A stretch of 50,067 bases of DNA from the IMG/VR virus record IMGVR_UViG_3300031673_007186, positions 1-50,067 of that record. One strand, given 5' to 3'. Each line of letters starts with the position of its first letter. Position 1 is the first letter of the stretch. Positions 1 to 39,255 of the stretch are shown piece by piece. The translations under genes and the position numbers were made by a program. The notes beneath the pieces were generated by a model that saw only the letters and a list, made by a program, of their open reading frames with translations, ran no database searches and had not been told where the DNA came from. This stretch comes from a virus.

Positions 1-3000
1 CTTCTTTTTCTTCATCCTCGTCTTCTTCATCTGTATCCTCTAACTCTTCTGGAATCTCTAACTCTTCTGGCTCCTCTACTTTAGGCTTAATCACAGGCTT
101 AGGTTTAACTGGAGCGGTTAAAGCACGCTCCATACGTTCCTGTTCGGTTTCGATTTCTTCTGGTTCCTCTTCCTCTTCAAACTCAGGATGTTCTTCCAGA
201 AACTTTCTAACCTCTTCATCATCTTTGCTTGCGCCAACCTTCCATAGTCTTTCTAACTTTGCTTGAGCTTTCTTCCAGTCAAGCAATTTATCTTTTGCTG
301 GAAGAATCTCGCCCAACATAAAATTTGATATTATGTATGCTAAATCTTCGGTTTCGTCAGAACCAACTGCGGTAAAGATCAATCCCGCTCTTTCTATTGG
401 CATACCTGTCCATAAACCCTTTGACCTCTTGATTTTACCAACAATGTCGGGCCAGCCAGTAATCTCAAGACCATTGATAACATTTGCTTCGGCAGCTAAC
501 AATGGAGCTTGTCGAATCATGCCAATAGGTTTCTTTTGTTCAACAAAGTCTATCAACAGTTGTTGAGCCTCTTTGTTTTTAGAGAACCCAACCATTCCGG
601 CTCCGCCACATACAAACAAGGCATCATATCTCTTAGATTTAATATCAGAAAGTTTTTTATCTATGCTAACAATAGCACCTTGTGTTCCCTTGGCCGTATC
701 TCCAACAGAAATAATATGAACTGTAAATCCATATTTCTCAGCAAACACTTTCCTGGAAGCAAAATATTCTGGCTCAGAAAAATCCGTCGGGGCAAGTAAA
801 ATCGCAACTCGCTTTTTAACTGAAGCGAATTTTATCTCAAGATTTTTAACAAACTCGGGATCGGGGCCTTCTTCACCCATCCAACGTCTTTTTTCCAAAT
901 GTTGCTCAAGCAACCTCTGCTTTTCTTTTTGTATCCACAACTCACCAGACGAACCATGTGGCAAACTTAATTCTTTTATTTCAGGAACGTCACTTTTTGA
1001 TAAATTACGCAGAGCCTTGGTTAACTCATATGGCATTTCATCTGGGTTGCCACTGTATAGATGTACTTCGCCATCAGTTTCTCCCTTGAAGAAAAAAACA
1101 TAGCCTCTGAAATCAACGTTTCTAAACTCTAATGATACTCCATGTTCATCGGCAAGAGAGAGGTGAGAATACATTTTTGGCTGATCCTCTCCATTTTGAA
1201 CATTCAGATGTGAAATTAATCTATTATGATCTGGATCCCAAATCCATATATATTCTCTATCTACTTCTTCACCACTCTTTTTTTTTATAGCATAGCGCTT
1301 GGAAAGAGCAAAAGCATCATCAACCGTATTATATGCGCCATGTTGGTCCACAGGGCCACGGCCTTGTGGTGGTGCTACTTGAATAATATTACTTTCAGGA
1401 AAAGGAATTTCTTGATCGTAATCATACTTATTTTCCCATAAGGGAGCATTTACATAGTTATTTTCAGCAGTGTCTTGGTTTCCTCCAAGAGTTTGCTTAA
1501 CATTTCCATTACTTTCACCAAAAGATCCAGGCACACGAATGCTGCCTTTGTTATGTAGCGTGCTTACATCGGAACGCATACCAGTGCCCTTTACGACTCC
1601 AGTAGTAACATCGTTCCAATCCTTATTAAGTTCCTCTAACAACCCTTTAAGTTCGCCTCTCAACTTATCTATTGACACTTCGCTACCAAGTTTAAACTCC
1701 ACGTGTAGTCCCGTTCCACCACTATTATAAAGTGTAGGGGTTACATCATATTTTTCTTTCAACTTGCCCGCCAACTCCTGGGCATATTTTTTGGCCTTGT
1801 CTAATGAGAAATCTCCATGTATGTCAAGATCTACAAATCCAAGATTGGTTTTGGTACCAAATACTTGATGAACCGATAACAACCTACGCTTAACCCAGTA
1901 AAAATAATTATTAGGTTGGTCATCGCCTTTGGGATCATCACTTGTGATTACAATTTCTTTTCCATTATGGTTTCTTTTGAGGATCTTTTCATTTTCCCCA
2001 ACACCAAGATATATTAGAACAGGCTTGCCCTTAACTCTGGACATAATCTTTTTCCTAACATCAGGCTTCATGTAATGCTTTTTAATCTGCCCTCGCGTCA
2101 GTTTTTTATCCTTATCAATAAGAACTTCGGACATCTTTTCTGGATCATTTTCATCATCCTCATCATCCGCAAAGTTCATGTTCAAAGGTTCAAACTCTAT
2201 AATAACGAAGCGCTTATCAGGTCCAAATCTTCTGCTAAGAGCTTTAGCCGCTCCCTTGCCATATGCTTTTTCTATGCGTGTAACACTCATAATTTTTTTG
2301 GCAAGTATTTTTACATCAGCAATATCCGCCCCAGAATAGCTTTTACATTTAACATGTTCGTCTGGTTTTACATTAATATCACCAGGTCTGATGCTAATCC
2401 TACGCTTTCCATTTTTTATATCTTCAGCATACTGCCCAGGAAAATATAATGTGCCGGGTTCTACATATGAAGCCCACTTTTGAAGTAGGATTTTAATCTG
2501 CGAGTCAGAAGATAATTGACTATATTTCTGAACCAAAGTATTTACAATCGCATCAGCAGCTTCTTCTTCTGTAAACGCATGTCCATATCTGGTTTCCAGG
2601 TCCTGTAGGACCTCAGTCATATGAGCCTTATACCATTCATATTCTTTCAGCACGTCACCATAATATTTTGTACTAACACCTTTCAATGGATCTACTACCG
2701 TTGGCTCATCCTCAAACTCTTCATCAGGATCATAACTTGGTTTTACAACCTCCAACTCACGCGTTTCCGTTTGATTTGTTGGATGCTGATATTTAACAGT
2801 AAAACCACCAATTTCCTCCGGCATAAAAGGAGCAATATTATTAGCATTTTGTTTAGATATTGTGATATATAAAACCTTGTTCGAAACATCTTTGCCAACA
2901 TATGTTATACCATAAGGAGCAAACTCAGTTATGTCTGCCTGACGATTAAGCCATTTACTAAGTAAATCTATAATAGCACCGGCCTGACCAGAATGTAATG

Positions 3001-5155
3001 GCGGAGCATCAAGATTTTCTTCTCCACGCTTACTTAAAAAAGCAAAACGTGTTTTTTTATCTGTATCTGGAAAACCAGCAAGACCACCATCTATAACGTT
3101 GGTAGAAAGGCCAGTTATCTTTTGAATATATGGATTAGCTCTTTGTAAATAATGAAGATGTGCTGGACCAAAAGGTTTTCTGTTTTGTAAAAACCTTCTA
3201 ACACGATATGGACCACTGCCATTTGTAATACACATAAGCTGATACATATTATATGCGCCTGGCGCATTGGTATTATATCCATACTTACTTACGTCCGTTA
3301 CAAGAAATCTCATCTTAGCCATAAAGTCGGATCTGGACACCCAATCGGACAACCGTTGTGCGGTTGGATTTTTTCTAATACTCGATCCAGTAAATGCTCC
3401 ATAAAACTGCTTGGAAACATCAGGATGATTTTGGGCTGACAACAATTGAGCTATCGCACTTTTTGCGACCAATGGAGTAATATATGAGTCCGCAATTCTT
3501 TGAAGGCTGGCCATATTAAGAGGTATGGGCGCAAAATCATACTTATCTTCTAATACTTTTATGTTAAGCTCCCTGCCAATATACCTATTACCAATTTGTT
3601 TAACTACTCCAGGAAGATTGCCCGGATTCATTCTTATTGTGGTTCCTTCTCGCCTGCGAACTACACTGGTAGGATTGCTTTGAATAAACTGAACAACAGC
3701 CGCCTGATCAACAGGAACCGTTTTCCATAGGTTTTTTTCTTGATTAATTTGACGCATATTGTGTTTCCAAGCATCAGATAGTTCAGCCAACTGCTGCGGA
3801 TCAATTCCAGTGACCTTTTTCAATTGTGGGTTTCTGGAAAGCCATTTCATAAAATATGGGCCATGTACTTGCGTTAAGCCAAACGAATTGCCAGAGTCTC
3901 CACGAATCCAACTTTTGCCGCCGCTTTCCAATTTAGACATGATTTCAAAACCAAGCTCGGGATCAAAGTTCATCCCAGGCGGAATAGAAGGAGCCTTCGG
4001 CATACCGAGTGGCGATGGAGCAGGACCCATAGGACGCAGCTCGCGCAACAAACCAGATGGGGTAAGTGTAGTGGCTCTTTTTGAGAGCTTAAACTCATTG
4101 TTCGCTTGAACAACCTTAAACTCATCTATGTTTTTAACATGGAATTCATTCATAGTTGCGTCTTTTGGTTTTTTGTCATCACGAAATCTTACGAATTTCT
4201 GGTGTCTTAAACCACCAGGAACTCGCTCTTGAAATCCAATTTCGATTACACAATTACCATCCTGTAATGTTCTTTTCAACAGAGCCTCATTTTCTTTTGA
4301 AAAATTACCAATGTCACTTATATGATAAAGCTTTCCTTTATAGTACTGTCCAAACAGAGCCTTAAGGTTTCCCTTATCCGTAGTTTCATAATCATATACC
4401 ACATAATCATCGGTTTCAGACTTTCCAACTCCGCCTTTGTATTTAAACATGATTCCCTTTGGTTTTGGTTCCGTTTCACCTTTAGCTTTATATTCGTATG
4501 GTTGATCTTTAAGTTTAAGCACAATGCCTTCCCCACCAGACTCAACAGCCTTATTCATAGCATCTTCCCATTCAGAAAATGGATATTGCTTGGTAAGAGA
4601 AATAAGATCGTTTGATTTTACAACAGATTGTAATGTTTTTCTTCTCTCAGAAAATGGCTTTTTAGATATATTGCTACCTTTCGACCATAACACATCATAC
4701 AGATGTAGTTTAATTTTACCAGGAAGTTCTTTGGCTTTTTGATTCGCAGTGTCTGGATTACTACCGGCTATAGATGTTACTTTTCCAACATCCTGTTTAT
4801 TATCGTGCCAATATACCAGTTCACCCTCTACCAATGTTTCATCTGGAAGAGATTTCAAAGCTTCGATCAGTTCTGGGAAGTTCTCAGTTTTTTCTTCTCC
4901 ACGACGACTATATAACTTAACAGTTCCATCAGACTTAATTGCCTGTGCTTTCCAACCATCAAGCTTCTCTTCAATAACAATATTTTCTCTATCATTGTCT
5001 TTTAATAGTTCATCGGGATCACTCACTTCTGACAGGCGCATTAAAGCAACCGGAGAAATAGAATCAGATGCATCGTTAGACATATTTTCTAACTTTTCAA
5101 TACGTTGTCTGATCTTCTCTACCTTGTTGGCGATAATTTGTGATCGTTGTGTCAA
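1..5155 (-). CDS. Giant multidomain protein: DNA ligase + lysozyme-like + ASCH + AEP primase + DJ-1/PfpI (C-terminus off window)
   Basis: This single frame is open from 5155 to the left edge, at least 1718 codons. It starts with TTG; GAGGAG lies about 7 nt upstream, and the next ATG, at about residue 25, lacks such a site. Domains seen, in order: an ATP-dependent ligase with motif I EKLDG (Lys64), motif Ia SRRGE, motif III VEGELV (about 109-114), motif IV GGEGIVLK (Glu209) and motif V FKYK (237-240), then an OB part ending in a LigD-like RHQKFVRFRDDK; an SLT/lysozyme-like segment with ESGG (Glu410) and FGLTQ (425-429); an ASCH-like segment near 899-990 (YAEDIKNGKRRISIRPGD); an AEP core with VDLDIHG (Asp1109, Asp1111), SGGTGLHV (His1151) and SIRVPGS (Arg1207); a DJ-1/PfpI fold about 1440-1640 whose nucleophile position reads GMIRQAP, Arg instead of Cys; and an acidic, proline-rich tail. 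It follows the portal operon. Domain calls come from motifs; the function of the whole is unknown. Confidence 0.9.
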   Translation of the reverse strand, partial: MTQRSQIIANKVEKIRQRIEKLENMSNDASDSISPVALMRLSEVSDPDELLKDNDRENIVIEEKLDGWKAQAIKSDGTVKLYSRRGEEKTENFPELIEALKSLPDETLVEGELVYWHDNKQDVGKVTSIAGSNPDTANQKAKELPGKIKLHLYDVLWSKGSNISKKPFSERRKTLQSVVKSNDLISLTKQYPFSEWEDAMNKAVESGGEGIVLKLKDQPYEYKAKGETEPKPKGIMFKYKGGVGKSETDDYVVYDYETTDKGNLKALFGQYYKGKLYHISDIGNFSKENEALLKRTLQDGNCVIEIGFQERVPGGLRHQKFVRFRDDKKPKDATMNEFHVKNIDEFKVVQANNEFKLSKRATTLTPSGLLRELRPMGPAPSPLGMPKAPSIPPGMNFDPELGFEIMSKLESGGKSWIRGDSGNSFGLTQVHGPYFMKWLSRNPQLKKVTGIDPQQLAELSDAWKHNMRQINQEKNLWKTVPVDQAAVVQFIQSNPTSVVRRREGTTIRMNPGNLPGVVKQIGNRYIGRELNIKVLEDKYDFAPIPLNMASLQRIADSYITPLVAKSAIAQLLSAQNHPDVSKQFYGAFTGSSIRKNPTAQRLSDWVSRSDFMAKMRFLVTDVSKYGYNTNAPGAYNMYQLMCITNGSGPYRVRRFLQNRKPFGPAHLHYLQRANPYIQKITGLSTNVIDGGLAGFPDTDKKTRFAFLSKRGEENLDAPPLHSGQAGAIIDLLSKWLNRQADITEFAPYGITYVGKDVSNKVLYITISKQNANNIAPFMPEEIGGFTVKYQHPTNQTETRELEVVKPSYDPDEEFEDEPTVVDPLKGVSTKYYGDVLKEYEWYKAHMTEVLQDLETRYGHAFTEEEAADAIVNTLVQKYSQLSSDSQIKILLQKWASYVEPGTLYFPGQYAEDIKNGKRRISIRPGDINVKPDEHVKCKSYSGADIADVKILAKKIMSVTRIEKAYGKGAAKALSRRFGPDKRFVIIEFEPLNMNFADDEDDENDPEKMSEVLIDKDKKLTRGQIKKHYMKPDVRKKIMSRVKGKPVLIYLGVGENEKILKRNHNGKEIVITSDDPKGDDQPNNYFYWVKRRLLSVHQVFGTKTNLGFVDLDIHGDFSLDKAKKYAQELAGKLKEKYDVTPTLYNSGGTGLHVEFKLGSEVSIDKLRGELKGLLEELNKDWNDVTTGVVKGTGMRSDVSTLHNKGSIRVPGSFGESNGNVKQTLGGNQDTAENNYVNAPLWENKYDYDQEIPFPESNIIQVAPPQGRGPVDQHGAYNTVDDAFALSKRYAIKKKSGEEVDREYIWIWDPDHNRLISHLNVQNGEDQPKMYSHLSLADEHGVSLEFRNVDFRGYVFFFKGETDGEVHLYSGNPDEMPYELTKALRNLSKSDVPEIKELSLPHGSSGELWIQKEKQRLLEQHLEKRRWMGEEGPDPEFVKNLEIKFASVKKRVAILLAPTDFSEPEYFASRKVFAEKYGFTVHIISVGDTAKGTQGAIVSIDKKLSDIKSKRYDALFVCGGAGMVGFSKNKEAQQLLIDFVEQKKPIGMIRQAPLLAAEANVINGLEITGWPDIVGKIKRSKGLWTGMPIERAGLIFTAVGSDETEDLAYIISNFMLGEILPAKDKLLDWKKAQAKLERLWKVGASKDDEEVRKFLEEHPEFEEEEEPEEIETEQERMERALTAPVKPKPVIKPKVEEPEELEIPEELEDTDEEDEDEEKE

Positions 5156-5168: not shown

Positions 5169-5218
5169 AACTCAAAGAGTTTATATCTATAATTTGTTAC
5201 ACTAAGAACAGTAGTAAT

Positions 5219-6937
5219 TTACTTTAACCATTTCTCCCTCGTGGATGTTTTATACAGATCCTGAAGTCTGGTTATAACTGAACTTGTCTTTGGTTCTTCT
5301 TCAGCCCAACTACCTTCAGCAACTTCTATATATTGTTTTCTTTTCTCCAAATCGGTTGGCAACCATACTTTACTTACATTTTCCGTATGTCCAGGAAATT
5401 GTCTTGGGGTAGCGTTATCAAGAAACGATATAATACCAGAATCTTGAACAATTGCCCCCGTGCCAGCTCTTTCATATCTTTGCGCGGTGACTGGATATAC
5501 CTTTGTAAACCGAGTCCATAACTCACCATCTTTCTGTCTTTGTGGCCGTTTTCTCTCAATCCACAAACCTTCTCGTGGATTTTGTTTTTTCGCCAACTCC
5601 TCTGCTGGAGTTTTTTCTACTACTTCTCCGGGAGTCTCTTCAATGTCCTCTTCAGACGTATCTTCTGGAGCAACTTCCTTTTTCTTAGTAAGCGGAAAGA
5701 CCTCTTCTGTAGGAGATTTTCCAAGATCCTCTTGTGGAATCTCTGGTGTAGTTTCCTTTTTCTGAGTTAGTGGAAATATTTCTTCTTCAGGCTTTGGAAG
5801 TTCTGGAGATTTAAATCCAAGATCCTCTTCTCCCTCAGGCTCCACAGTTTCTACTTCTACTGGCGGAGCACCAACATCAGTACCTCTTGATTTTGGATAT
5901 AGAAAAACATAGTCCGTATCATAACTCATATCCCATTCATCTTCGCCCATAACATCTTTTAACTTTCCACCCATAGGTTGTTTTTGTTCTTTATAAGAAC
6001 TCCAGTAACGAACATTTCCGCGTCCATCCGTAGAAAGATGTTTGCCTAACAGATAATCAAAATATTTCTTATCAAATCTCAAACCACCACTCGAAGGATT
6101 AAAAGCTACGCTTTTTGCCAACTCGCTCCAACCCTCTTTCGCATATGGAGTCATTCTTTCCCATGAAGCTCCCTCAGGCCCAGATTCTTCTTCTGTAGAA
6201 ACCTCTTTACCAGCTTCACCTTCTGGCTTGCTGAGATCAGGTAATTTCTCAATCTGAGACTTATCCTTTTCTTTTGTTGATGGTTTGCCATCTTTGGACT
6301 TTTCACTCTTACCAGTTAATCCAAGATATTGTACGAGCTTGCCATAGGCAATATCAAACTCTCCCATAATATCTTTCGAGTCCGCAAGTTTAAGTGAATA
6401 AATTCCACCTCTCCAACCTTCAAGGTCATGATATCGCAGATCCTTTTTAATACCACTGTGGGCTTCATTAATTTTGTCTATTCTATCATCAAGGCGCTCT
6501 TGCGCTTCTTTTGCCTTGGTATAAAGTTCTCTGTAGACTTTGAAAAATATACGTTTTCCAAAACCAACCAATTTTTTAAGAAGATTTTTAAAAAGCCCAG
6601 CCTGTTTAATTAGATCGCCATCGGCTTCAGCCATTTTGATGATATAATCATCCATAAGATTGGCATTGTGAAAATCACCAATCTCATCAAATAAATCACC
6701 AAAAAGAGCTGCTTCCCGTACGGAAATAGCATCATCAGCAAATTCTATGTCTTCCAGCTTTACATCCAAATCCTCTTCCTCTTCTGGCTTTGGAGTCACA
6801 GCCTCTTCATGCTCTTGTAAGATTGTTTCAATCTTTTCGCGTAACTCAATAAGTTCGGGATTAGACATGCCATAAAGCTTTTCAGAAATGCCAGAGATTC
6901 CCAACTCCATGGCAAAAAGTGTTTTATTCTGGGTCAT
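5219..6937 (-). CDS. Acidic putative virion protein, function unknown
   Basis: This protein has 572 residues. The N-terminal 110 residues are helical and acidic and include a segment at 76-103 (AALFGDLFDEIGDFHNANLM) that resembles a helical hairpin found in other proteins of this cluster. Residues 105-160 are basic and helical. The middle is a low-complexity Glu/Pro region containing two copies of FPLT(Q/K)KKE. The C-terminal 120 residues look folded (GLWIERKRPQRQ onward). The start codon overlaps the upstream gene by 14 nt and has AGGAAA in front. Its place between portal and the giant ORF suggests a virion or assembly role. I do not recognise the family. Confidence 0.85.
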   Translation of the reverse strand: MTQNKTLFAMELGISGISEKLYGMSNPELIELREKIETILQEHEEAVTPKPEEEEDLDVKLEDIEFADDAISVREAALFGDLFDEIGDFHNANLMDDYIIKMAEADGDLIKQAGLFKNLLKKLVGFGKRIFFKVYRELYTKAKEAQERLDDRIDKINEAHSGIKKDLRYHDLEGWRGGIYSLKLADSKDIMGEFDIAYGKLVQYLGLTGKSEKSKDGKPSTKEKDKSQIEKLPDLSKPEGEAGKEVSTEEESGPEGASWERMTPYAKEGWSELAKSVAFNPSSGGLRFDKKYFDYLLGKHLSTDGRGNVRYWSSYKEQKQPMGGKLKDVMGEDEWDMSYDTDYVFLYPKSRGTDVGAPPVEVETVEPEGEEDLGFKSPELPKPEEEIFPLTQKKETTPEIPQEDLGKSPTEEVFPLTKKKEVAPEDTSEEDIEETPGEVVEKTPAEELAKKQNPREGLWIERKRPQRQKDGELWTRFTKVYPVTAQRYERAGTGAIVQDSGIISFLDNATPRQFPGHTENVSKVWLPTDLEKRKQYIEVAEGSWAEEEPKTSSVITRLQDLYKTSTREKWLK

Positions 6938-7190
6938 TTTTTTCCTGTTGCCTCCGATCTAATTTGTAACTGGCCCGCTTCTCAATCTGTATTAAACCAG
7001 CATAAGTATTTTTTAGCAAATTCACCTTAAATTTTGCGGATTTGAGACTCTCTTCCCACTGAGAAATAGCGGCTTGAACTTTACCCATCAAGTCCCTAGC
7101 TTCTTGAATCTGCCCTTTTTTCAACAATTTACTTATCTTAGTATGATAAAATTGGCAGTTTTTACGAAATTCATGATCAGACTTGTTCAT
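6924..7190 (-). CDS. Small basic helical protein, unknown
   Basis: An 88-residue, Lys/Arg-rich, all-helical protein (HEFRKNCQFYHTKISKLLKK at the N-terminus) without cysteine motifs or membrane segments. It starts at a TAATG junction with the portal stop and has AGGAGG in front, so it is translationally coupled to portal. Its 3' end overlaps the 572-residue gene by 14 nt. Its position suggests a head or neck accessory or scaffold role, but nothing in the sequence proves this. Confidence 0.8.
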   Translation of the reverse strand: MNKSDHEFRKNCQFYHTKISKLLKKGQIQEARDLMGKVQAAISQWEESLKSAKFKVNLLKNTYAGLIQIEKRASYKLDRRQQEKNDPE

Positions 7191-9175
7191 TATGGACCTC
7201 CTGGCCCCGGTCCTGGTCCAAGTGGTGGTGTAACTCCGGCGCCTTCTGGCGCTCCAGCTCCCGGAGCGCCCATCTCGCCGCCCGGCGGTGGGGCCAACTC
7301 AGGAAGGCCTCCAGGAGCACCACCCATATCTGCTCCTGGCATTCCCATATCGCCACCAGGCATACCCGCTGGTGCGCCAGCCTCTGGAGGAGTATCCTTC
7401 TCTCTTTCCTTGCTATCAATAGGCTCCATAATCGGCTTCTCAGGATCCAAAGAACGAAGCTCAGTTAATGTCATATTAGATAGAGAATTTTCTTCTCGCA
7501 TTTTAATAGCCTTATCAATAGATTCCTGCCTCATCTTTATTATCTCATCTTGATAATTAAGACCCAAACTTTTATAAAGTGTTTGAACGGCAGCCTGTCC
7601 AGCACTTACCATACCAGTAACATTACCTATGTAATCCTGTAGGTCGTATAGATTCATTTGATTCCATTCAACCTCTGGTACGATTAGCCTCTTTTCCTTA
7701 TTCTTATACTCATAAAAACCTTGGACCTCGCTGATAGGAGCAAAAATCTTATTTACTAACCATCGTGCTATCATATTACGGAAGTTAAAATATCTTTGTC
7801 GTAATACTTCCAAACCAATAGATGCTGAAGAATATACAGCACTTTCAGTATCAACAACAGCTGGCGGGACCATCAAGCCCGTATAAATGTTTTTTGTAAT
7901 AAATTCAAGGTCCGATGCTATATCAAGAACCTGGCCCTGAAATCCTACTCGCTCGACAGATATTCCTGCGTGCGTAATAATCTTCGCATCTTTATCATAC
8001 TGTGCCTCTTCAAACACCTGGCGATAAAATTCAAGATCTTCTTGAGTTGCCTTGTACTCGCCCTCAGTAGTTCCACCAACCTTAATAAGAGTGACCGGGT
8101 TTACCATTCCATCAGCCTGAGCAAACTTCGATTCTCTCAATTTATCATATAACATAAGGTCTTTAAATACGCTAACAATAACACTGGTTCCTCTTACGTC
8201 ATATGGACTGGAAAGCATTTTCAAATGCGAAACATTAAAATTATCTAATGGAATGTCCTGTCCAGAGCGTATATGATGTATGATCTGCTCAGGTATCTGC
8301 CTTCGTATTTGAGCGTCTGCCGGATTGCTACTAAACACAAGCCTTTGAAGAACGGCATCAGGTTTTAATGTAATGATTGGATCACTTGATAGAACTGTTT
8401 TCTTAACATGAATGTAGTCAGGATTTTGTATTACTATTCTGGCCCACTTACCAGTTTTCTCATTAAGTTCGGCAAATGGAAACACTTCTCCAAGTTTCCA
8501 GTATTCGAGCGAAATGTCTCCTAACGCATTCATAAGATCCATCTCTTCAACCATGTTTTCAAAAAAATCTAAAACTCTTTTATCTTGACATTTTAGATTC
8601 AATTTGCTAATTGGATATGTCGCATGTAAAGAAATAGCGTTTCTAACTATTGGATGTAATTGAAAAAAATTGCGGCACCATGCATTTATAGTAATCCTAT
8701 CACGAGGCAAATTAAGATTTGCCATTGTAAATAATGGACTATATACCTCTGGAGCCAAACGTTCATAACCAGTTCCAGACGTTCCTCCAACAGAACCGAC
8801 ACCAGAAATTGATCCCATTTTCTGTATTTTAGCCTGAGCTTCCGCAGCTTCTCTCTTTATATAAGACCCGCTGTGAGCGACAACTCCAACAGCTGGCGAA
8901 GAATTTTGTCGAATGTTGCCCCTACTACCTTCGACTCCAGGTAACCAGGAACTTCTTACAAGCCTATCACTATCAAGAGCAGCATTACGAATGTTAGTTG
9001 GGGCAGGACGATTTAAACGACTTCCGTCATAGCTTCCGCCTTCCCTTATAAGTCCGTTATCAATATCACTTTCTATGCTTGCTCTGCGATATTCTGTTAT
9101 ACCAGCAGCTCGTTTAGGAGTTATTCTTAACTGCGCATCTGGGGTCTTTGGTCTAACTCCTCTTCTATCTATCAT
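7190..9175 (-). CDS. Phage portal protein
   Basis: A 661-residue protein that would form the dodecameric ring at the head vertex through which DNA is packaged and ejected. It lies immediately downstream of the large terminase, the usual portal position. After a flexible N-terminus, residues about 140-540 show portal-like alternation of helices and strands (LHATYPISKLNLKCQ, EYWKLGEVFPFAELN, IQNPDYIHVKK, and the long helical region SIGLEVLRQRYFNFRNMIAR). The C-terminal about 75 residues are a Pro/Gly/Met/Ala-rich low-complexity tail. The ATG has AGGAG eight bases upstream. The call rests on context and fold-like layout rather than a single diagnostic motif. Confidence 0.85.
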   Translation of the reverse strand: MIDRRGVRPKTPDAQLRITPKRAAGITEYRRASIESDIDNGLIREGGSYDGSRLNRPAPTNIRNAALDSDRLVRSSWLPGVEGSRGNIRQNSSPAVGVVAHSGSYIKREAAEAQAKIQKMGSISGVGSVGGTSGTGYERLAPEVYSPLFTMANLNLPRDRITINAWCRNFFQLHPIVRNAISLHATYPISKLNLKCQDKRVLDFFENMVEEMDLMNALGDISLEYWKLGEVFPFAELNEKTGKWARIVIQNPDYIHVKKTVLSSDPIITLKPDAVLQRLVFSSNPADAQIRRQIPEQIIHHIRSGQDIPLDNFNVSHLKMLSSPYDVRGTSVIVSVFKDLMLYDKLRESKFAQADGMVNPVTLIKVGGTTEGEYKATQEDLEFYRQVFEEAQYDKDAKIITHAGISVERVGFQGQVLDIASDLEFITKNIYTGLMVPPAVVDTESAVYSSASIGLEVLRQRYFNFRNMIARWLVNKIFAPISEVQGFYEYKNKEKRLIVPEVEWNQMNLYDLQDYIGNVTGMVSAGQAAVQTLYKSLGLNYQDEIIKMRQESIDKAIKMREENSLSNMTLTELRSLDPEKPIMEPIDSKEREKDTPPEAGAPAGMPGGDMGMPGADMGGAPGGLPELAPPPGGEMGAPGAGAPEGAGVTPPLGPGPGPGGP

Positions 9176-9185
9176 ATTTTACTCC

Positions 9186-11039
9186 TTAAAAATTCTTAGG
9201 TACATAAGCAACAACTGGTTTTGGAAAAAACGTATTGCCAGGTGTTTCAACATTAATTTTGAACCCGCGCGTTTTATCAAATTTATATGCTAAATAAGCA
9301 TACATTAGAGCCATAAATCCATCGTTCTGAATTTTACCCTTAAGATATGTCTGATGTAATTGTCCTTGTCGCATAACAACTTTACTCTCCATAGAACAAC
9401 AATGGGCAACTAACCAAGAGATAGCTTCATAACTTGCCCATGGAAAACGAAACCGCCCTTTTCGTAATAACTCAAACATTTCACCAATTAGCTTGTCTTT
9501 ATCTATAACAACTTCCAATAAATCTCTATCGTATTTTTGACCGCCAGAAACCATCCCAGAACTTCTTACAGATTTATATCTTTCTCCATAAGCTCTTTTC
9601 AGCTCAGTTGACATATCATCAGCAAAACCAATGTCGCCCATGGCCGATCTAACTCCGAATAGACGAAACATATTATCTACAAAGGACATTTTGCCATCGA
9701 TATCAAGTACTTTCAACTTTTTTGCGTACTCAATTACAAATCTTTCATCATGATCTACCGATAGAATTACGCCGCAAGAAAACGATTGACCACGCTTAAT
9801 ATTATCAATATCAGGTTTTCCACCCCAGTCACAACCAAGATAAACAACCTTTGACTCTCTATCAATATGTTTAGCCATCGCTCTATTAGGATCTCTACAC
9901 ATCTGATATATTTCCTCTCGGGAAATGGGCATGCCAGCACCAGAATGGAACTCTCCCAAAACCTCATTGTTAAAAATCATCTCAGAGTTTCGCGGATTGT
10001 TTTCTGGCTTTTCTTTCATCACGATTTCTTTTGTAAAGTTTGGTATAAATAATTGATTAAAATGAAACCCTATATAGTCGGAATCTTCTCGTCCTGGTGT
10101 TGCCAACCACTTGCCTCGCTCAACAGCCTCAACCTTATCTTGTTCACAATCACAACTGGGACACTTTACTATATTTTCATATAACCAAATATCTTTTTCC
10201 CACTTATCAGATCCTGGAGTATACAAAAGAAAATATTTTCCACAATCTTGGCATCTCAAATAATAACGCCTTTGATCAGATGATTCCCATAGCCTATGAA
10301 AAAAGGTTCCTTTTTGTCGTGGCGTTCCAAAATACACTTGGACGCCGCCGGGCTTTGGTCCATGCTGAGCATGGGTAAGACACTTAATTGTCTTGGCTAT
10401 CGCAACTTCTGACATATCCTGAACTTCGTCAAAAAAGCATACATCAAATGTACGACCAAGAACTCTCGTTCCTTCGTTGCCAATAGATTCACACCACAAA
10501 ACATTTCCATTTTTAAATTGTTTATAGTATAAACTATCTGTAGAATCACGTAAACTATTTTTCTGAGCCTGCACATAAGGCTTAATTTTTCCGGGGTGCC
10601 GGCTATCATTGAAGTCTTGTATCTGCACAGATTCCGTGATCATCTTTTCTAACTTATCCTTAGAAAAACCATGCATCATATCTAAATGTGGAAAAGCATG
10701 CGTTACTCGAACTGGCGATACTCCTCCAACTCCAAACATTCCACTGGCGACCATATACAATTCTAATGCTGTGGCCAGCACAGTAGCTCCAACCTGACGA
10801 CCCTTAACAATAACAATAGGCTTTCCATTAGCTGTCATCGCTACCGTAGAAATATGACGATAGACATCAGCGATGAATTTCCAACCATTATTGGTTATAC
10901 GAAACGGCCTGCCATCAAGAGTAAGAAATGACTCCGCAAAAGAAACGGGATCAACCTTTAAGAGTTCCCGTTTCAACGATTCAAAACTATTTTCTAAAGT
11001 CCAAGCATTAAGAGAACCATTCATAACATCAAAACTCAT
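9186..11039 (-). CDS. terL: Terminase large subunit (ATPase and nuclease)
   Basis: The 617-residue DNA-packaging motor. The Walker A region reads IVKGRQVGATVLA (about 77-89). The usual GKT lysine is Ala, but Lys79 sits just upstream, as in the deviant Walker A of lambda gpA. Walker B is VCFFDEVQDM near residue 205. A zinc-ribbon-like insertion follows (RCQDCGKYF ... KCPSCDCE), again gpA-like. The RNase H-like nuclease shows YLGCDWGG, AMGDIGFADD and NDGFMALMYAYLA, supplying the acidic residues. It overlaps the upstream gene by ATGA and has GGAG in front. Terminase identity is firm; the exact subfamily is inferred. Confidence 0.96.
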   Translation of the reverse strand: MSFDVMNGSLNAWTLENSFESLKRELLKVDPVSFAESFLTLDGRPFRITNNGWKFIADVYRHISTVAMTANGKPIVIVKGRQVGATVLATALELYMVASGMFGVGGVSPVRVTHAFPHLDMMHGFSKDKLEKMITESVQIQDFNDSRHPGKIKPYVQAQKNSLRDSTDSLYYKQFKNGNVLWCESIGNEGTRVLGRTFDVCFFDEVQDMSEVAIAKTIKCLTHAQHGPKPGGVQVYFGTPRQKGTFFHRLWESSDQRRYYLRCQDCGKYFLLYTPGSDKWEKDIWLYENIVKCPSCDCEQDKVEAVERGKWLATPGREDSDYIGFHFNQLFIPNFTKEIVMKEKPENNPRNSEMIFNNEVLGEFHSGAGMPISREEIYQMCRDPNRAMAKHIDRESKVVYLGCDWGGKPDIDNIKRGQSFSCGVILSVDHDERFVIEYAKKLKVLDIDGKMSFVDNMFRLFGVRSAMGDIGFADDMSTELKRAYGERYKSVRSSGMVSGGQKYDRDLLEVVIDKDKLIGEMFELLRKGRFRFPWASYEAISWLVAHCCSMESKVVMRQGQLHQTYLKGKIQNDGFMALMYAYLAYKFDKTRGFKINVETPGNTFFPKPVVAYVPKNF

Positions 11040-11761
11040 TGTTTATCTCCAGATGACTCATCAAAAACATTTTCATTTCCATCATTATCTTCTGTAACTA
11101 TAATAGAAATATATTCTCCGGCATGTTCCTTATCATCGGGTAGAAACTTTTTGTGTTTAGAAAGACAATATCTAATATATTCTTCAAGACCTTCACCCTT
11201 TATATCAATTTCGTCATCAAACTCTTTGCGAATTCTATTCTGAATGGCGGGAGCCGAGGCATAGCCGCCACTGGTTCTACATGCGTTTTGAATAAACTCT
11301 TCTAATCCCTCATATTTTTGGTATTTTTCTGGCAGCTCTTTGACATCTTTGTCTTTGGCAAGCAATGGATCGTTCTGCAAAGATTTGATTTTCTCATCAA
11401 CCATAGACGCTGCTTTTGTTAGACCCTCATCTTCTAATGCCTGAGCAAAAGCAATTAGGTTAACTAAAAGTTTAGTCTTAGCTTGTATTTCTGTTAGTTT
11501 ACAATCATCAGCCTGCCGCTGTTGTTTAGGCGTATTTTCTACATTAACGGTAGCCACCTTTTCAATCACATCCAGACCAACTTGTTGTCGCAGTTCATCA
11601 ACACGAGCCTCTACAGCATCCAAATCATTTTTAGACTTAAAAAGCTCACGAATATCATCAAAAGGATTCCCACCTTTTTTCAGTTCGTCGTCAGCAAATG
11701 ATTGTAGCCAGTCTGGCAAAGCAGCCGCACGAGCATATTCTCTATCATCTTCAAAAGACAT
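11036..11761 (-). CDS. Putative packaging/virion-cluster protein, unknown
   Basis: A 241-residue protein. I chose the ATG at 11761 (MSFEDDREYARAAALPDW) because AGGAGATAATC precedes it. A longer TTG frame reaches 11842 but would overlap the upstream gene by about 70 nt and lacks a ribosome site. The sequence is charged and helical, with an element LVNLIAFAQALEDEGLTKAA resembling the recurring LD..G..EA hairpin of neighbouring virion proteins. The C-terminus is Asp/Glu-rich. It ends in the start codon of terL (ATGA), so it is co-translated with it. Function unknown. Confidence 0.85.
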   Translation of the reverse strand: MSFEDDREYARAAALPDWLQSFADDELKKGGNPFDDIRELFKSKNDLDAVEARVDELRQQVGLDVIEKVATVNVENTPKQQRQADDCKLTEIQAKTKLLVNLIAFAQALEDEGLTKAASMVDEKIKSLQNDPLLAKDKDVKELPEKYQKYEGLEEFIQNACRTSGGYASAPAIQNRIRKEFDDEIDIKGEGLEEYIRYCLSKHKKFLPDDKEHAGEYISIIVTEDNDGNENVFDESSGDKQ

Positions 11762-11771
11762 GATTATCTCC

Positions 11772-12575
11772 TTATGCGTAATATTGCGAAGGCCACTCGC
11801 CAAAACCTGATTCGCGGCTAGGATCCTCATCTTTCTCGCCAAACCTTAATCTATCCTTGAACTCTGGATAACCCATATCAGCCATAATTTGAAGAATTTC
11901 TAACTCTTCGCGAGGATTCATCTCGTATTTCTTTTTAGCGTCAGTCCAAAGATCATTCATGTTACGACCACCAGAAACAACACCATTAATCATACCACTA
12001 ACAATAGCACGATGGAATGGAGTGATATTAACCTGAAATCCCTGAAAAGATGGGGTTCCAGCCTCTTTGGTAAGCGTATCATCCAAATCTTCATCTGCCC
12101 TACGTCTGCGTCTTTGATTGCGTCGAGTTTGCTTCATAGCATGCAGACCATCAATGGCATCTTGAAGGGCATCCATATTGTACTCAATCTGTTGGCGTTT
12201 TTTATCTACATCATCAACATCAAGAGAACCATCAAAATCGCTCCGCATGGCTTCAGAACAATAATTGTTTAGCTTCTTCCAGCGAGCCGCAGCATTCTCC
12301 ATTTTAGATAGGTTTCCCTGCGCATGCTGAAGCGTTGGGATGTGGGACATTTGTTCATCAAGAAACTGCACAAACTGCTTAACCTCTTTCGTCTGTAACC
12401 AGCCCTGTGGTTTCTCTTGTGTCTCTGGTTGCTTAACCTCTCGCGCCTCTTGTTCTCCAGCAACATCTTGAAAATTCATCTGGTAGTTTGGAGCGTCTTC
12501 TTCAGCAACACTGATGAGTTCTTGCTCTAGTTTTTCATCTTCAGATACGGTGAAGAGTCCTTCTTCTTTAGCCAT
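11772..12575 (-). CDS. Acidic helical protein of the packaging cluster, unknown
   Basis: This 267-residue protein has an acidic N-terminus (EGLFTVSEDEKLEQEL), a helical Gln/Met-rich middle with a basic patch (QTRRNQRRRRRADED) and a C-terminal part containing PSFQGFQVNITPFHRA and MNDLWTDAKKKYEMNP. It has no transmembrane or metal motifs. GGAGG lies about 9 nt before the ATG. It sits two genes upstream of terL. The basic patch could bind nucleic acid, but that is a guess. Confidence 0.85.
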   Translation of the reverse strand: MAKEEGLFTVSEDEKLEQELISVAEEDAPNYQMNFQDVAGEQEAREVKQPETQEKPQGWLQTKEVKQFVQFLDEQMSHIPTLQHAQGNLSKMENAAARWKKLNNYCSEAMRSDFDGSLDVDDVDKKRQQIEYNMDALQDAIDGLHAMKQTRRNQRRRRRADEDLDDTLTKEAGTPSFQGFQVNITPFHRAIVSGMINGVVSGGRNMNDLWTDAKKKYEMNPREELEILQIMADMGYPEFKDRLRFGEKDEDPSRESGFGEWPSQYYA

Positions 12576-12603
12576 TATTTTAAACCTCCATAAAAGGTCT
12601 TTC

Positions 12604-13239
12604 CTATAAATGTTTATTGGGATCCCACATCTTTATCATACGATCTAATGTTCCTGGATCCGTGGTATTTTCGTCAAACTTTTGTCTACATTTACTCAAA
12701 GCCTCTACTAACTCAAATTGCTCATCCGTAGTAAGTGGCTCGTTATTTGAAATTTTCTCCAAAATTTGTTCTGGCAAAACAGCGCCGCTTTTAATAAATT
12801 CATAGGCTCTACTGCCAACTAAAGAAAACAAACCTTGAAAAAGGTTTCTACTCTCATTATTATCTGCATAAAATCCCAATGGAAAAGCATACAAGCCATC
12901 AAGTCCAATTCCACTAAAAGTCTGTGGATATAGAGGACTACCAGAAAATGCTGGCATACTCATACCGGCAGCACTATCGCCAAAATCACAATTTACAACA
13001 TTTTGCTCAATAATAACATTCGCGGCATACATACACCTATCATTGGTCTTGTAATAAATATAAACCCGCTTGTTGGCTTTTTCTATATCTTCTCGCTTTT
13101 CTTTTGGCATAGTTTCCAACGGGCACATATGTGCTACCGAATCACCAGCAAATTGACATCCTTCAACTATTGGCAAACCAAAAGGACAACTGCCTTCACC
13201 CTGATCTTTGTCAGATTTGATCCAAGCACATCGTTTCAT
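12604..13239 (-). CDS. Cysteine-rich small protein, unknown
   Basis: In this 211-residue protein the first 110 residues hold most of the cysteines (RCAWIK, GSCPFGLP, EGCQFAG, HMCPLE, DRCMYA, VNCDFG), a pattern that could bind metal. A Gly/Pro/Phe-rich stretch (MSMPAFSGSPLYPQTFSGIG) follows, then a helical C-terminus (EQILEKISNNEPLTTDEQFE). It starts at a TAATG junction with the 2H phosphoesterase gene and has AAGGGG in front. The family is not recognised. Confidence 0.8.
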   Translation of the reverse strand: MKRCAWIKSDKDQGEGSCPFGLPIVEGCQFAGDSVAHMCPLETMPKEKREDIEKANKRVYIYYKTNDRCMYAANVIIEQNVVNCDFGDSAAGMSMPAFSGSPLYPQTFSGIGLDGLYAFPLGFYADNNESRNLFQGLFSLVGSRAYEFIKSGAVLPEQILEKISNNEPLTTDEQFELVEALSKCRQKFDENTTDPGTLDRMIKMWDPNKHL

Positions 13240-14435
13240 TATTTCCCCTTACGTTTCAACAACTTCCAATATTTAATAAAATCTTCAACAGCCTTGTTGG
13301 AAGCTCCGCTATCATCGGCACTCTGAGATCTATATTTTTTGAGAAATTGTACAATAGATTTAAACATTCCGGGGCCGCCACCAGACCATAAATGTGGCTC
13401 TTTTGGAAAATCTTTAGTTTTATCTTTCTTTACATCTACGAAATGCGCTATTGACATTTTACCATATTTACTTTCCAGCCATTCTTTTACTTCTTTGTCA
13501 GTAATTCCAAACATTTCTTTATACATTTCTATGTTTTTCGCTATCAAATCAAACGCTTTTTCGCGCTCCTCATCGGTAAACTCTTCATCTTCTCCCGAAT
13601 AATCGATCTCATCAGCTTCAGATTGTGGTTCTTCTTGTGGTTCCTCTTGTGGCTTAGCCATATCTTCATAAATAGTTCCACTCAAATCAAACTTAATATC
13701 TTTGCCATCAAAAATACCAACCTTTCCTATAAGAACAGGAGGAGGGCTTTCAAGATCCACTGGGGCAGTGCCCGCAGCCAAAAGTTCATTTGAGTATACC
13801 GGAGAGGTTCCATCAGTGGCCACAGTAATATGAGGAATAGGATTATCTGTTGGAAGCTCAGAACTTACTACAACAGCCTGGCCCTTCTCATCAGAACCTG
13901 TTCCTACAACCTGAAGCCTTACATCACTCCCCAAAGGTAAAGCCATAACTTCTTCAGGAGATGGCTTAAACTTGATGGTCATATGATGCATGAATTGTTT
14001 TGGAAGAAGATCTCCTTTAACTCCGCTCCACCACTCAGCCAAAGCCTCTTTTGATTCTGGGCTAAGAAATATACCAGAATAAATAGCTTTTCGCTTGTTG
14101 CCAGCATTTTTGATGCGTTCGGCAGCCTTTTTCTTTGGGTCCCATTTTTGAAATCTTTCTTTTTGGGTTTGCCTGCGCCAGTCTACCCAATCTTTTATGC
14201 CACCAGGAAACTTTTCCATAAACTCAGATACACTGCCAAAATATGGAGAGTTCTCCCAACTGGAATAGTCCATATTTTTTCGCCACGGATTTGGAGTAGT
14301 GCCGTCATTTTTTGGCTCATAATGCCCATGTTTTTGTATAAAAGCATCAAACTGAACACAAAGGCGCTTTAAACCTAAATCATCGCCATTGCTCAGAATA
14401 TTTGCCAGTGTAAGAAATCTCAGTAATCTTCTCAT
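13239..14435 (-). CDS. 2H phosphoesterase-like protein
   Basis: In this 398-residue protein residues about 117-260 carry two HxT motifs, HHMTIKF (His151, Thr153) and PHITVA (His202, Thr204), spaced as in the 2H phosphoesterase superfamily. The local context (MHHMTIKFKPSPEE, then NPIPHITV) resembles the cyclic phosphodiesterase domain of fungal tRNA ligases. Such enzymes open 2',3'-cyclic phosphates on RNA ends. The first 115 residues are unassigned. Residues 265-398 are acidic, then helical (MFGITDKEVKEWLESKYGKM). It is coupled by TAATG to the CCA nucleotidyltransferase upstream, supporting an RNA-repair role. Substrate is inferred, not shown. Confidence 0.75.
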   Translation of the reverse strand: MRRLLRFLTLANILSNGDDLGLKRLCVQFDAFIQKHGHYEPKNDGTTPNPWRKNMDYSSWENSPYFGSVSEFMEKFPGGIKDWVDWRRQTQKERFQKWDPKKKAAERIKNAGNKRKAIYSGIFLSPESKEALAEWWSGVKGDLLPKQFMHHMTIKFKPSPEEVMALPLGSDVRLQVVGTGSDEKGQAVVVSSELPTDNPIPHITVATDGTSPVYSNELLAAGTAPVDLESPPPVLIGKVGIFDGKDIKFDLSGTIYEDMAKPQEEPQEEPQSEADEIDYSGEDEEFTDEEREKAFDLIAKNIEMYKEMFGITDKEVKEWLESKYGKMSIAHFVDVKKDKTKDFPKEPHLWSGGGPGMFKSIVQFLKKYRSQSADDSGASNKAVEDFIKYWKLLKRKGK

Positions 14436-15214
14436 TAGAACATCTCCTGTCCATCAAGCAAATGTTGAACCATATGATTTTTAGCTAACTCAAGTGTCAT
14501 CATCCTGCTTAAGGGCACAATAGGAAGTAGTTTATACTTTATAAGTAAATCTAAGGCTCTTTTTGAATTCATATCCAACATTTGATTAACCTGTTTTTTT
14601 ACGTGATTGGTTGGTATCTCGCTAATACCACCCCTGTATTTTATAAGAGCCTCTTCTAACTTTGGATCAGGTGTCAGATTAAACTTTATTATCAATTTTA
14701 CAGCTCGCAATATTCTTCTTGGATCGTATCCAATTGTTAGTTCAGGATCAACCGGAGTTCGCAAAACTTTATTTTTTATATCTTCCATTGCTTTGCCCGT
14801 AATATCAAGCGGTTCTCGCTCAAGATTCATGGGCTGAAGCAAAGTGTTTATTGTAAAGTCGCGACTATAAACCTCTTTTTCAACTTCAGATGGATTTCCA
14901 ATTCCCATCTTTTTAAGAACATCTTCTATACCAGGAAGATTAAAATTATTTGAAAAATCCAACCTAATGTTCTTAAAGTCTATAGAAGAATGACCATCGT
15001 CATATGCTCTAAAATGTGCATCCGGCCAAACTCTACTTGCTGACATTGCCAAGGCAAAAGAATTTTTATCGCCAGTTGTAATATCAATATCCGTCACATT
15101 CTGGGCGACACCAAACGCCTTATCTCTTGGCAAACCGCCAACAATATAAGGATCTGGAATATCATAATCTTTTGATATCTTTTCTAATTTCGTTAGCAAC
15201 TCAGATAATTTCAT
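14435..15214 (-). CDS. CCA-adding-type tRNA nucleotidyltransferase (poly(A) polymerase head domain)
   Basis: This 259-residue class II nucleotidyltransferase shows IVGGLPRD (24-31), TDIDITTG (41-48, two metal-binding aspartates), the SRDFTINTLL motif near 117 and YDPRRILRAVKL near 163, the series found in CCA-adding enzymes and bacterial poly(A) polymerases. It is shorter than cellular CCA enzymes and appears to keep the head and neck while lacking most of the body and tail. The expected reaction is adding or repairing the tRNA 3' CCA end; A-only activity cannot be excluded. The ATG at the preceding gene's stop has GGAG upstream. The 2H phosphoesterase follows directly. Confidence 0.88.
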   Translation of the reverse strand: MKLSELLTKLEKISKDYDIPDPYIVGGLPRDKAFGVAQNVTDIDITTGDKNSFALAMSASRVWPDAHFRAYDDGHSSIDFKNIRLDFSNNFNLPGIEDVLKKMGIGNPSEVEKEVYSRDFTINTLLQPMNLEREPLDITGKAMEDIKNKVLRTPVDPELTIGYDPRRILRAVKLIIKFNLTPDPKLEEALIKYRGGISEIPTNHVKKQVNQMLDMNSKRALDLLIKYKLLPIVPLSRMMTLELAKNHMVQHLLDGQEMF

Positions 15215-37260: not shown

Positions 37261-39255
37261 CTATAACATAATGGTAATGCCAACTTCTTCTCTGGCTTTT
37301 TCAACTCTATGTTTCCAAGCTTGCCAAAACTCCTGATTTGATTGGCCGGTTCTTTCTTCAGTTAAAATCCTATTTATGATGTTCTTAAAAAATACAGATC
37401 GCAAACGCAAAATACGTTGAATCGGCGCATGTGTTGGGTGGTTTGACATTACTAAAGCCTCTATTAACACTTTATCGCCAGGATTTAGATCTGTAGTGGA
37501 TTTTAATTTTATTGCTTGCCACTCCACTACTTCTATCTGATCAGAACAATCATTTCCATCTTTTCGCATCGCATGTACTCTCGCCAAACGAGGAATGTTT
37601 TTTGATCTCCTTTCTCTAATTGGCGTTTTATTTACAATTCTTTTACGATCATCAACTGTAGAATAAAAAAGTGTTTCTGGTCCACCAGAGAACTTTGGAT
37701 AACGACAAAACCAACCAAAATCTTTAAGTGATCTTATCTTAGAATCTAACTTATTAAAACCACCAATGTTGTTCTCCAGAACAGTCATCCATTCGTGAAA
37801 AATAGCCTGATGTACGGCCGCCTCTTGGCCGCGAGTATTTTTAGTAATTTTTTTCTTTGTTTGACCAGGATATTTTACTTTTTCTATATCAGTCATTTCT
37901 CTCTCTGTTATTTCACAATTAAAAAAGTAGGTATTTGCGTCTTCATTATATTTGGCCATCCAAGTTATAATTGACGCCAAAAAACACCACGTTGATAGGC
38001 CGGAAACCGTTTTCTTATTAATTTTAGACATTTGAAGAACCATTTCACCAATCAGTATATTAATTCGCTGTTTAGTTATAATATTATCATCAGAATATTG
38101 TGGAGTAGCAGCCAACTGATCTTTAAAGCTTTCTCCATCGGAATTGTCATCATATACTCTGTGTGAATCTAAAATTACATCTTCTTGTTTAATCCATATT
38201 CTAATAGAAGGAAGTCCGGTCAAAAAGCCGGATTTTCCTCCAAAACCAGAAGCTGATTGTAATGCGGTTCTTGGTGTGAAATTAGTCCCACAATATGGAC
38301 ACGTCAAGGGGAAATCTAACATTGAGTCAGGAGGTTGATATAATATTTGAGTATTTTTACCAACGGCGAAATTCTTAAGCGCACCTTTGAAGTTGAAATG
38401 TCGGCCTAAACGAGACTGATTAACGCACGAGAGTGGGACAAAATGACCAACACAATCATCCGATGGGCACACACATGTAATGCCAAGAAATTTTTCAAAT
38501 TTCTTTCGTGTTTGTTGTGTGAGAAGAATCTTCTCAAGTTCCTCTTTATTGTTTAACTTTCGTAATGATTCGGCCTGAAGCTCAAGGTTATCCGCTATAG
38601 ATTTACATCTATCGCAAGAATAACTTCGATGTTGGCAATTTGTGAGTGGAATTTTAGCAATAGGTTTATATGTTAAACAATATGGGCAGGCTGGGACATT
38701 TTTAAATTTATATCCCATATCTGTGCCGATCTCTCTAACAAATTCGTTCTTTAAAGAGTCTATAATATATCCGCTTGGATTTTTATCATTACCACTATAC
38801 CATTTTCCTTCCAAATAAGTACGCAACACAACAGAGATTTTTTCTACAATTTTAGCAATCTTTGCTCGACCTTGTGGTGTGTTTTCTATATTACCAGATC
38901 TTTCTTCTTCAGTAAATAAAGGAAACGAAATACCTCTTGAAATTGAGTTTCTTCTTTTCACTCTATCGAACCATAATTTGCCGAAATGTAAAACGGCATG
39001 CGGAAGAATCCACTTCTCAAAGAGTTCTGTAGTGTTAAGAATTGTATGCCAATTGATTGGATTTCCAACGATATTGTTAAAAGAAGCCGCGTCTTTTATG
39101 TCCGCAAAAACGCCTAAGTCTTGTATTTCTTGTGGCACTGGCCAGCTACCATCAAATAGTTTTTGTTTTGCCTCTTCAGAAACAAGCTCTTCTGGGCCTA
39201 TTTGATCGGCATGTTGCGCGAGCCACTCTCTTACCTGCTCGTCCGTTTCTTTCAT
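37261..39255 (-). CDS. Large multi-zinc protein, unknown
   Basis: This 664-residue protein has at least three Cys clusters in the middle third: ACPYCLTY with NCQHRSYSCDRCKS, then CVCPSDDC with a nearby Cys, and TCPYCGTNF. An all-helical N-terminal region precedes them and a helical C-terminal half follows, with EREMTDIEKVKYPGQTKKK and a basic RKRIVNKTPIRERRSKN. The AGGGT site is modest. It lies 4 nt downstream of the sigma factor gene, so a transcription-associated role is possible. I do not recognise the family. Confidence 0.8.
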   Translation of the reverse strand: MKETDEQVREWLAQHADQIGPEELVSEEAKQKLFDGSWPVPQEIQDLGVFADIKDAASFNNIVGNPINWHTILNTTELFEKWILPHAVLHFGKLWFDRVKRRNSISRGISFPLFTEEERSGNIENTPQGRAKIAKIVEKISVVLRTYLEGKWYSGNDKNPSGYIIDSLKNEFVREIGTDMGYKFKNVPACPYCLTYKPIAKIPLTNCQHRSYSCDRCKSIADNLELQAESLRKLNNKEELEKILLTQQTRKKFEKFLGITCVCPSDDCVGHFVPLSCVNQSRLGRHFNFKGALKNFAVGKNTQILYQPPDSMLDFPLTCPYCGTNFTPRTALQSASGFGGKSGFLTGLPSIRIWIKQEDVILDSHRVYDDNSDGESFKDQLAATPQYSDDNIITKQRINILIGEMVLQMSKINKKTVSGLSTWCFLASIITWMAKYNEDANTYFFNCEITEREMTDIEKVKYPGQTKKKITKNTRGQEAAVHQAIFHEWMTVLENNIGGFNKLDSKIRSLKDFGWFCRYPKFSGGPETLFYSTVDDRKRIVNKTPIRERRSKNIPRLARVHAMRKDGNDCSDQIEVVEWQAIKLKSTTDLNPGDKVLIEALVMSNHPTHAPIQRILRLRSVFFKNIINRILTEERTGQSNQEFWQAWKHRVEKAREEVGITIML

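Follow-up and report, generated by a model that had tools for sequence, protein, structure and literature searches.

Two questions are raised by the low end of this viral record: whether the very long open reading frame found there encodes one genuine protein, and why a phage would place DNA end-processing domains among its head genes. The window, by which we mean the whole stretch of DNA analysed, is a complete virus record of 50,067 bases. The ORF lies on the minus strand and the record ends inside its frame, so the protein is incomplete. Its features, with amino acid (aa) positions in brackets, are:

2..5155, minus strand: giant polyvalent-type ORF, TTG start at 5155, 1718 aa in the window, C-terminus lost at the contig end
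5162..5167, minus strand: GAGGAG ribosome-binding site, 6 bases 5' of the TTG start
4121..5065, minus strand: LIG, ATP-dependent DNA ligase, nucleotidyltransferase plus OB core (aa 31-345)
3056..3973, minus strand: LYS-like module with conserved ESGG...GDxGxSFGxTQ (aa 395-700)
2159..2470, minus strand: ASCH domain, nearest solved fold YqfB ac4C amidohydrolase (aa 896-999)
1511..2134, minus strand: POL, LigD-type AEP primase-polymerase, D1109/D1111, SGGTGLH 1145-1151 (aa 1008-1215)
836..1267, minus strand: X domain, present in some relatives only (aa 1297-1440)
320..817, minus strand: DJ-1/PfpI domain (aa 1447-1612)
2..238, minus strand: start of an acidic linker; relatives continue with the MID domain and then the LigD PE domain, outside the window

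The original prediction had described a single stop-free frame, and this was recovered at 1718 codons, together with the motif positions given for KLDG (K64), EGE (110), DLD (1109-1111), SGGTGLHV (1145) and SIRVPGS (1205). The remaining frames contain 95 and 205 stops on the minus strand and 53-114 on the plus strand. Unusual size and a contig end inside the ORF might point to a chimeric assembly or frameshift artefact, but this is extremely improbable, given that contig L003 is 100% identical to the window ORF over aa 1-921, that the fusion recurs in relatives of 38-71% identity on independent contigs, which refutes an assembly join, and that third codon positions diverge by 47-70% from the homologue in L002, against 6-30% for second positions, in all modules and linkers. 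This bias is seen in every module and indicates purifying selection along the whole frame.

The N-terminal module is a DNA ligase, as had been predicted. K64 sits in EKLDGW and motif VI reads RFRDDKKPKDAT. The module matches Pfam PF01068 at 1.6e-29, against 3e-5 for an RNA ligase profile, and NCBIfam TIGR02779 at 3.5e-22, with general ligase models scoring slightly higher; a ten-sequence family profile matches archaeal DNA ligases in the PDB at 5.8e-28, motif VI included. The length of the segment, which starts straight at the nucleotidyltransferase domain, suggests a minimal ligase lacking the N-terminal DNA-binding domain. A host or prophage origin of the ORF was rejected, as a genome scan gave only distant ligases (23-25%). 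LIG is the sole DNA ligase found in records G004, G006, G008 and G009, and the accompanying search found no NAD-dependent ligase. Being the only one found in the 301-kb contig, it could serve replication there; record G007 carries a second ligase, which weakens a simple replicative reading.

The polymerase module was likewise recovered, the AEP triad by position and the AEP fold by structural comparison and a weak profile. Among polymerases, the module matches the M. tuberculosis LigD PolDom best (Foldseek 2.2e-4, probability 1.00), with an rmsd of 1.5 Å over 97 columns. The modelled core is beta-alpha-beta-beta-alpha-beta, with core blocks at about 58-84 in a model of low overall confidence, and D1196 probably supplies the third acidic residue. 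The LigD Prim-Pol profile PF21686 picks out the POL site in seven of seven records, always below its curated cut-off. The profile and structure-prediction check suggested with the original prediction therefore returned both enzymes, the ligase by profile and the AEP by fold plus weak profile.

The remaining modules fared unequally. The ASCH-like segment stands, by its fold (E. coli YqfB, Foldseek 1e-5) and by a weak profile match (PF04266 at 0.0034 in relative L004, below cut-off). The segment called lysozyme-like is strongly conserved at E16, D26, G28, S30-F31-G32 and Q35 (segment numbering), and its fold is modelled with a pLDDT of 92. A PDB profile search and a Pfam search with ten family members gave no significant lysozyme or transglycosylase match, however, and Foldseek against the PDB and viral structures found nothing significant for the modelled fold; phiKZ gp144 and an LT_GEWL protein turn up solely as insignificant matches. 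We therefore rejected a lysozyme identity and retain the label as a motif-level lead only. The DJ-1-like C-terminus was confirmed as a member of its family (PF01965, 7.4e-22) but not as an active enzyme. The PfpI nucleophile motif is RQAP in the window (Arg-Gln at aa 1548-1549), CHAP in L002, L009 and L011, CHGP in L008 and NNAV in L006; because Arg-Gln replaces the catalytic Cys-His, the domain is probably a pseudoenzyme in the window virus.

What lies beyond the contig end is indicated by relatives, which were drawn from IMG/VR contigs, several of them huge phages (301,683 and 340,392 bases). Full-length relatives reach 3474 aa. In the 3178-aa homologue of L002 the C-terminal order is an acidic linker, a MID domain of ~870 aa, which in the relatives stands between PfpI and PE, and a terminal LigD 3'-phosphoesterase (PE; PF13298 at 2.4e-22) interrupted by a LAGLIDADG intein. 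PF13298 is present in 11 related records, and PE Pfam scores among relatives run from 2.4e-22 to 1.8e-27. The catalytic residues are kept as His, His-x-Asp and His-Pro-x-x-Tyr, and His42, His48 and Asp50, the residues named in a review of LigD (PMC8656161), have clear counterparts. PE was missed in the window because the contig ends before it; judging from the relatives, the window virus itself may well encode one.

LIG, POL and PE occur within a single ORF in L002, L006, L008, L011, L095 and L103 and in adjoining ORFs in L007, L009 and L014. L095 is a compact form of 1362 aa (LIG-LYS-ASCH-POL-X-PE). L093 retains LYS-ASCH-POL, whereas no LIG or PE was detected over its 98.9 kb; the LigD set is thus not an obligatory feature. 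The original prediction had drawn a parallel to bacterial LigD from the joining of ligase and AEP; this parallel is stronger than first seen, since the relatives also have the LigD phosphoesterase, and we regard it as highly probable that the domain set is of LigD type. The lack of Ku noted for the window extends to its relatives, PF02735 being absent from the 13 records searched, several of which are fragments. The PE, MID and LYS-like parts had no relative in 50,697 deposited phage records.

The MID domain also occurs by itself:

37261..39255, minus strand: standalone MID paralogue, 664 aa, zinc-cysteine-rich (hmmsearch 1.7e-39)

By eye, its middle part resembles sigma-70 region 2, and a sigma-like gene adjoins it (39260-39832); copies outside the head block are also found in G004, G006 and G008. 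At L007:14210-14232 a stop and restart divides the MID domain over two ORFs, either a true gene split or a frameshift. The intein of L002 (L002:7926-17462) lies within the PE active-site motif (AG^C...N^SHFDLR), and the portal genes of L002, L006, L093 and L095 contain intein-like insertions, some portals being about 1400 aa. A small Cys-rich module (CSWCK...HGMCxxC) opens the polyprotein in L006, L007, L008, L013 and L093, and is missing from the window, L002 and L009.

The genomic setting agrees with the late, structural context that had been claimed from the neighbouring portal and terminase genes. The genes next to the giant gene are:

5219..6937, minus strand: acidic 572-aa protein, preceding the giant gene here and in relatives
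7190..9175, minus strand: portal protein (phrog_16240, 1e-64), nearest cultured relative Bacillus phage G gp14
9186..11039, minus strand: terminase large subunit, TerL (phrog_675, 6.1e-57)

In all loci that reach far enough, terminase, portal and acidic protein are encoded upstream of the giant gene. In the 301-kb contig, the gene for a protein of 1353 aa that matches a head maturation protease (phrog_18299, 1.9e-13) lies about 9 kb downstream of the giant gene, and the companion ORFs in between encode a topoisomerase IB, a 2H phosphoesterase, a HExxH zincin-like segment and a tyrosine-phosphatase-like domain. Topoisomerase IB was rejected as a constant companion, being present in just three of seven records. 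The window portal compares with that of Bacillus phage G at 36%; no match to the giant protein was found around the portals of Bacillus phage G and Rctr197k, which have the portal in common. The zincin-like segment is followed by the phosphatase-like domain in companion ORFs of G004 (208.9-211.8 kb) and G007 (185852-187345), and in G004 topoisomerase IB and 2H lie before them.

Modules are swapped among the relatives, namely ParB-like, topoisomerase IB, 2H, zincin and phosphatase modules. The ParB-like module is placed after PE in L006 and L011, after LIG in L103 and after POL in L093. The 2H module follows PE in L009, lies between POL and PE in L110 and is part of the companion ORF in L006, and topoisomerase IB has an ORF of its own in L002 and L006 and is fused downstream of PE in L014. 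Module junctions are marked by a short motif with the consensus FxLSKRA. In the window we find:

4073..4087, minus strand: junction motif LSKRA, before the LYS-like module (aa 357-361)
3023..3037, minus strand: junction variant LSKRG (aa 707-711)
2468..2488, minus strand: junction variant LLQKWAS, directly before ASCH (aa 890-896)

The last of these joints reads SKRA in L004, L008, L093 and L103. All 32 occurrences of strict SKRA lie outside modules and none inside, where 39% of residues are outside (p 7e-14), a value that overstates the case because orthologous joints are not independent; the joints span at least six joint types. SKRA often stands 0-6 residues ahead of a module or N-terminally in a companion protein (MFYLSKRA). 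Strict SKRA exceeds shuffled sequences in G004 (5 vs 0.26), G006 (6 vs 0.2) and G008 (4 vs 0.16), these matches being in the head block, and shows a weak excess in G007 (3 vs 0.46). Joints that lack SKRA retain a looser hydrophobic-x-K-x-A (LLQKWA, EIKFA, LWKIA). Other proteins of the head block are enriched in this looser motif in four large contigs (27 vs 6.9, 22 vs 8.5, 17 vs 4.7 and 15 vs 5.1; p 5e-9, 8e-5, 8e-6 and 3e-4), with little or no enrichment elsewhere in the same genomes (p 0.02-0.2); the test is a partial hold-out only, because the motif was defined after viewing the giant proteins and some head proteins. Enrichment in the window's own head block was not significant (6 vs 2.8, p 0.07). 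The distribution suggests that the junction motif may be a prohead-targeting signal, a head-protease site, or both. A helical motif, LAxxLDxxGxxxEADxLDxLI, is also repeated across many head-block proteins, often N-terminally (window 17681-18553, 11036-11842 and 5219-6937 (-); L110 ORFs at 5206-12947), and is perhaps another head-targeting element.

We favour, at somewhat below even confidence, the view that the giant ORF encodes a late-expressed polyvalent cargo polyprotein of huge phages, with a LigD set, which matures inside the head and enters the host along with the DNA. The computed basis of this explanation consists of the domains, their recurrence in relatives, synteny, module shuffling and the junction motif, from which we infer packaging, cleavage and injection. 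Taken separately, it seems rather probable that the modules are virion cargo, while cleavage at the junction motif is evenly balanced. The earlier suggestion that the protein is virion-borne and ejected is plausible, and is strengthened by head-operon synteny, the shared motif, the nearby head protease and the precedent of polyvalent proteins (PMC5512222). A role in DNA-end repair would follow from domain content.

In LigD, the PE, POL and LIG domains heal, fill and seal DNA ends (PMC8656161). In the phage, the FxLSKRA-type motif would send proteins into the prohead, be cut by the head protease, or both; if it is cut, the polyprotein would fall into its modules and these would be separate proteins in the mature head. 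The modules would then be injected together with the genome, where PE may heal 3' ends, POL fill or add (ribo)nucleotides and LIG seal, so that incoming DNA ends could be repaired or joined without phage-encoded Ku. Lacking a phage Ku, such end joining would require host Ku, annealed ends or another tether. The fuller proposal, that the head protease cuts at FxLSKRA-type sites to give swappable injected enzymes, including a complete LigD set joining or repairing the incoming genome without phage Ku, is more tentative and appears possible rather than probable. The phage protease sites in the papers cited here end in Glu, unlike SKRA, which counts against cutting.

In another reading the motif is a tag that is never cut. 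The SKRA-type motif would then act in capsid targeting or scaffold binding, with the protein packaged and injected whole, like the N4 virion RNA polymerase, a giant protein that goes into the particle unprocessed (PMC5512222); the frequent position of the motif at the extreme N-terminus (MFYLSKRA) agrees with this. But a single tag accounts less well than cutting for the repeated presence of the motif at many internal junctions and for modules that are also encoded as ORFs of their own, and we think an uncut tag unlikely. Of similar, low likelihood is a late intracellular enzyme that is not packaged at all, its place in the head operon reflecting late expression only. The LigD domains would repair nicks and breaks in phage DNA during replication or packaging, with the other domains as regulators. 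Ligases are ordinary parts of phage replication (PMC7824862), and LIG is the only ligase found in four records, as described above; left unexplained are the motif common to head proteins, the PfpI, LYS-like, phosphatase and zincin companions, and the second ligase of G007.

Less probable still is injected cargo for counter-defence or RNA and nucleotide repair in place of a DNA end-joining kit. PE, 2H, ASCH (YqfB-like), ParB-like and phosphatase modules would target damaged RNA, nucleotides or host proteins, with LIG and POL mending restriction damage. The presence of 2H, zincin, ASCH and phosphatase modules in the same or neighbouring ORFs is consistent with this, and polyvalent proteins are usually read as conflict effectors (PMC5512222). 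However, the ligase fits the DNA ligase profile far better than that of RNA ligase (1.6e-29 vs 3e-5), and the POL core is nearest the LigD PolDom.

Comparison with described systems places the cargo polyprotein between several of them. With bacterial LigD (M. tuberculosis, P. aeruginosa, B. subtilis) it shares LIG, AEP POL and PE in one polypeptide, in six relatives, and conserved PE and POL active-site motifs. It differs in its order (LIG-...-POL-...-PE), in the unrelated domains in between, in its length of 1362-3474 aa, and in its location in phage head operons with no phage Ku; in the present record PE is outside the window. We thus regard it as a LigD toolkit by content but do not class it as an orthologue of LigD. 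Polyvalent proteins are the nearest described kind. These proteins of phages and conjugative elements join many disparate domains in one late-gene polypeptide, are believed to be injected and often include a processing zincin (PMC5512222); the phage family has several disparate domains per polypeptide and a late or structural neighbourhood, and its relatives include 2H, ParB-like and zincin-type modules. The text of that paper contains no LigD, ASCH or DJ-1, with Primpol in conjugative elements only, and the LigD set is the new element by comparison. The family also differs in carrying the head-block motif at its junctions, and no HExxH is present in the window ORF, whereas HExxH marks candidate zincins in companion ORFs and within the polyproteins of L107 and L110.

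For packaging and maturation, the closest likeness is with the T4 internal proteins and Alt and the SPN3US and phiKZ ejection proteins, which are head-targeted, cut by the head protease and injected (PMC7411985, PMC5694885, PMC13282480). The T4 proteins have a capsid-targeting sequence of 10-20 residues that is removed by the head protease, and the SPN3US ejection proteins are likewise processed (PMC7411985, PMC5694885). SPN3US and phiKZ sites end in Glu (AXE, SXE), whereas those proposed here are of Lys-x-Ala type and the cargo is a multi-enzyme polyprotein. N4-type phages package and eject a giant enzyme of ~3500 residues (PMC12633501); it is an RNA polymerase, not an end-repair protein, and is packaged unprocessed. 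Mycobacteriophages Omega and Corndog, as cited in PMC7719229, use NHEJ machinery for infection, but they bring Ku and use host LigD, whereas the present family brings LigD domains and no Ku.

The claim that no protein with this architecture had been described also held, in that we found no paper naming it. About 3,000 actinobacteriophages searched by others had no NHEJ parts (PMC7719229), LigD is unmentioned in the main text of a 224-genome survey of jumbo phages (PMC7824862), and the literature examined, these two papers included, yielded no phage with a complete LigD set. The protein family is real, conserved and striking, and the core of the original prediction was good, incomplete rather than wrong. 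If the modules are virion cargo, phages would carry their own end-repair kit at entry. On the fuller, more tentative proposal, virion-delivered end joining would be combined with a modular cargo-loading code common to head proteins. The junction motif would supply a direct, testable rule for proteins that are loaded and cut in the head, and would also let cargo be predicted in uncultured giant phages.

Two further loci in the window deserve mention. At 13239-15214 (minus strand), in the head gene block, a tRNA-ligase-CPD-like segment (PF08302, 2.9e-4) is found beside a poly(A)-polymerase/CCA-enzyme head domain (PF01743, 9.7e-8). At 20289-22775 (minus strand) a cupin-domain protein and a radical-SAM protein adjoin the structural genes.
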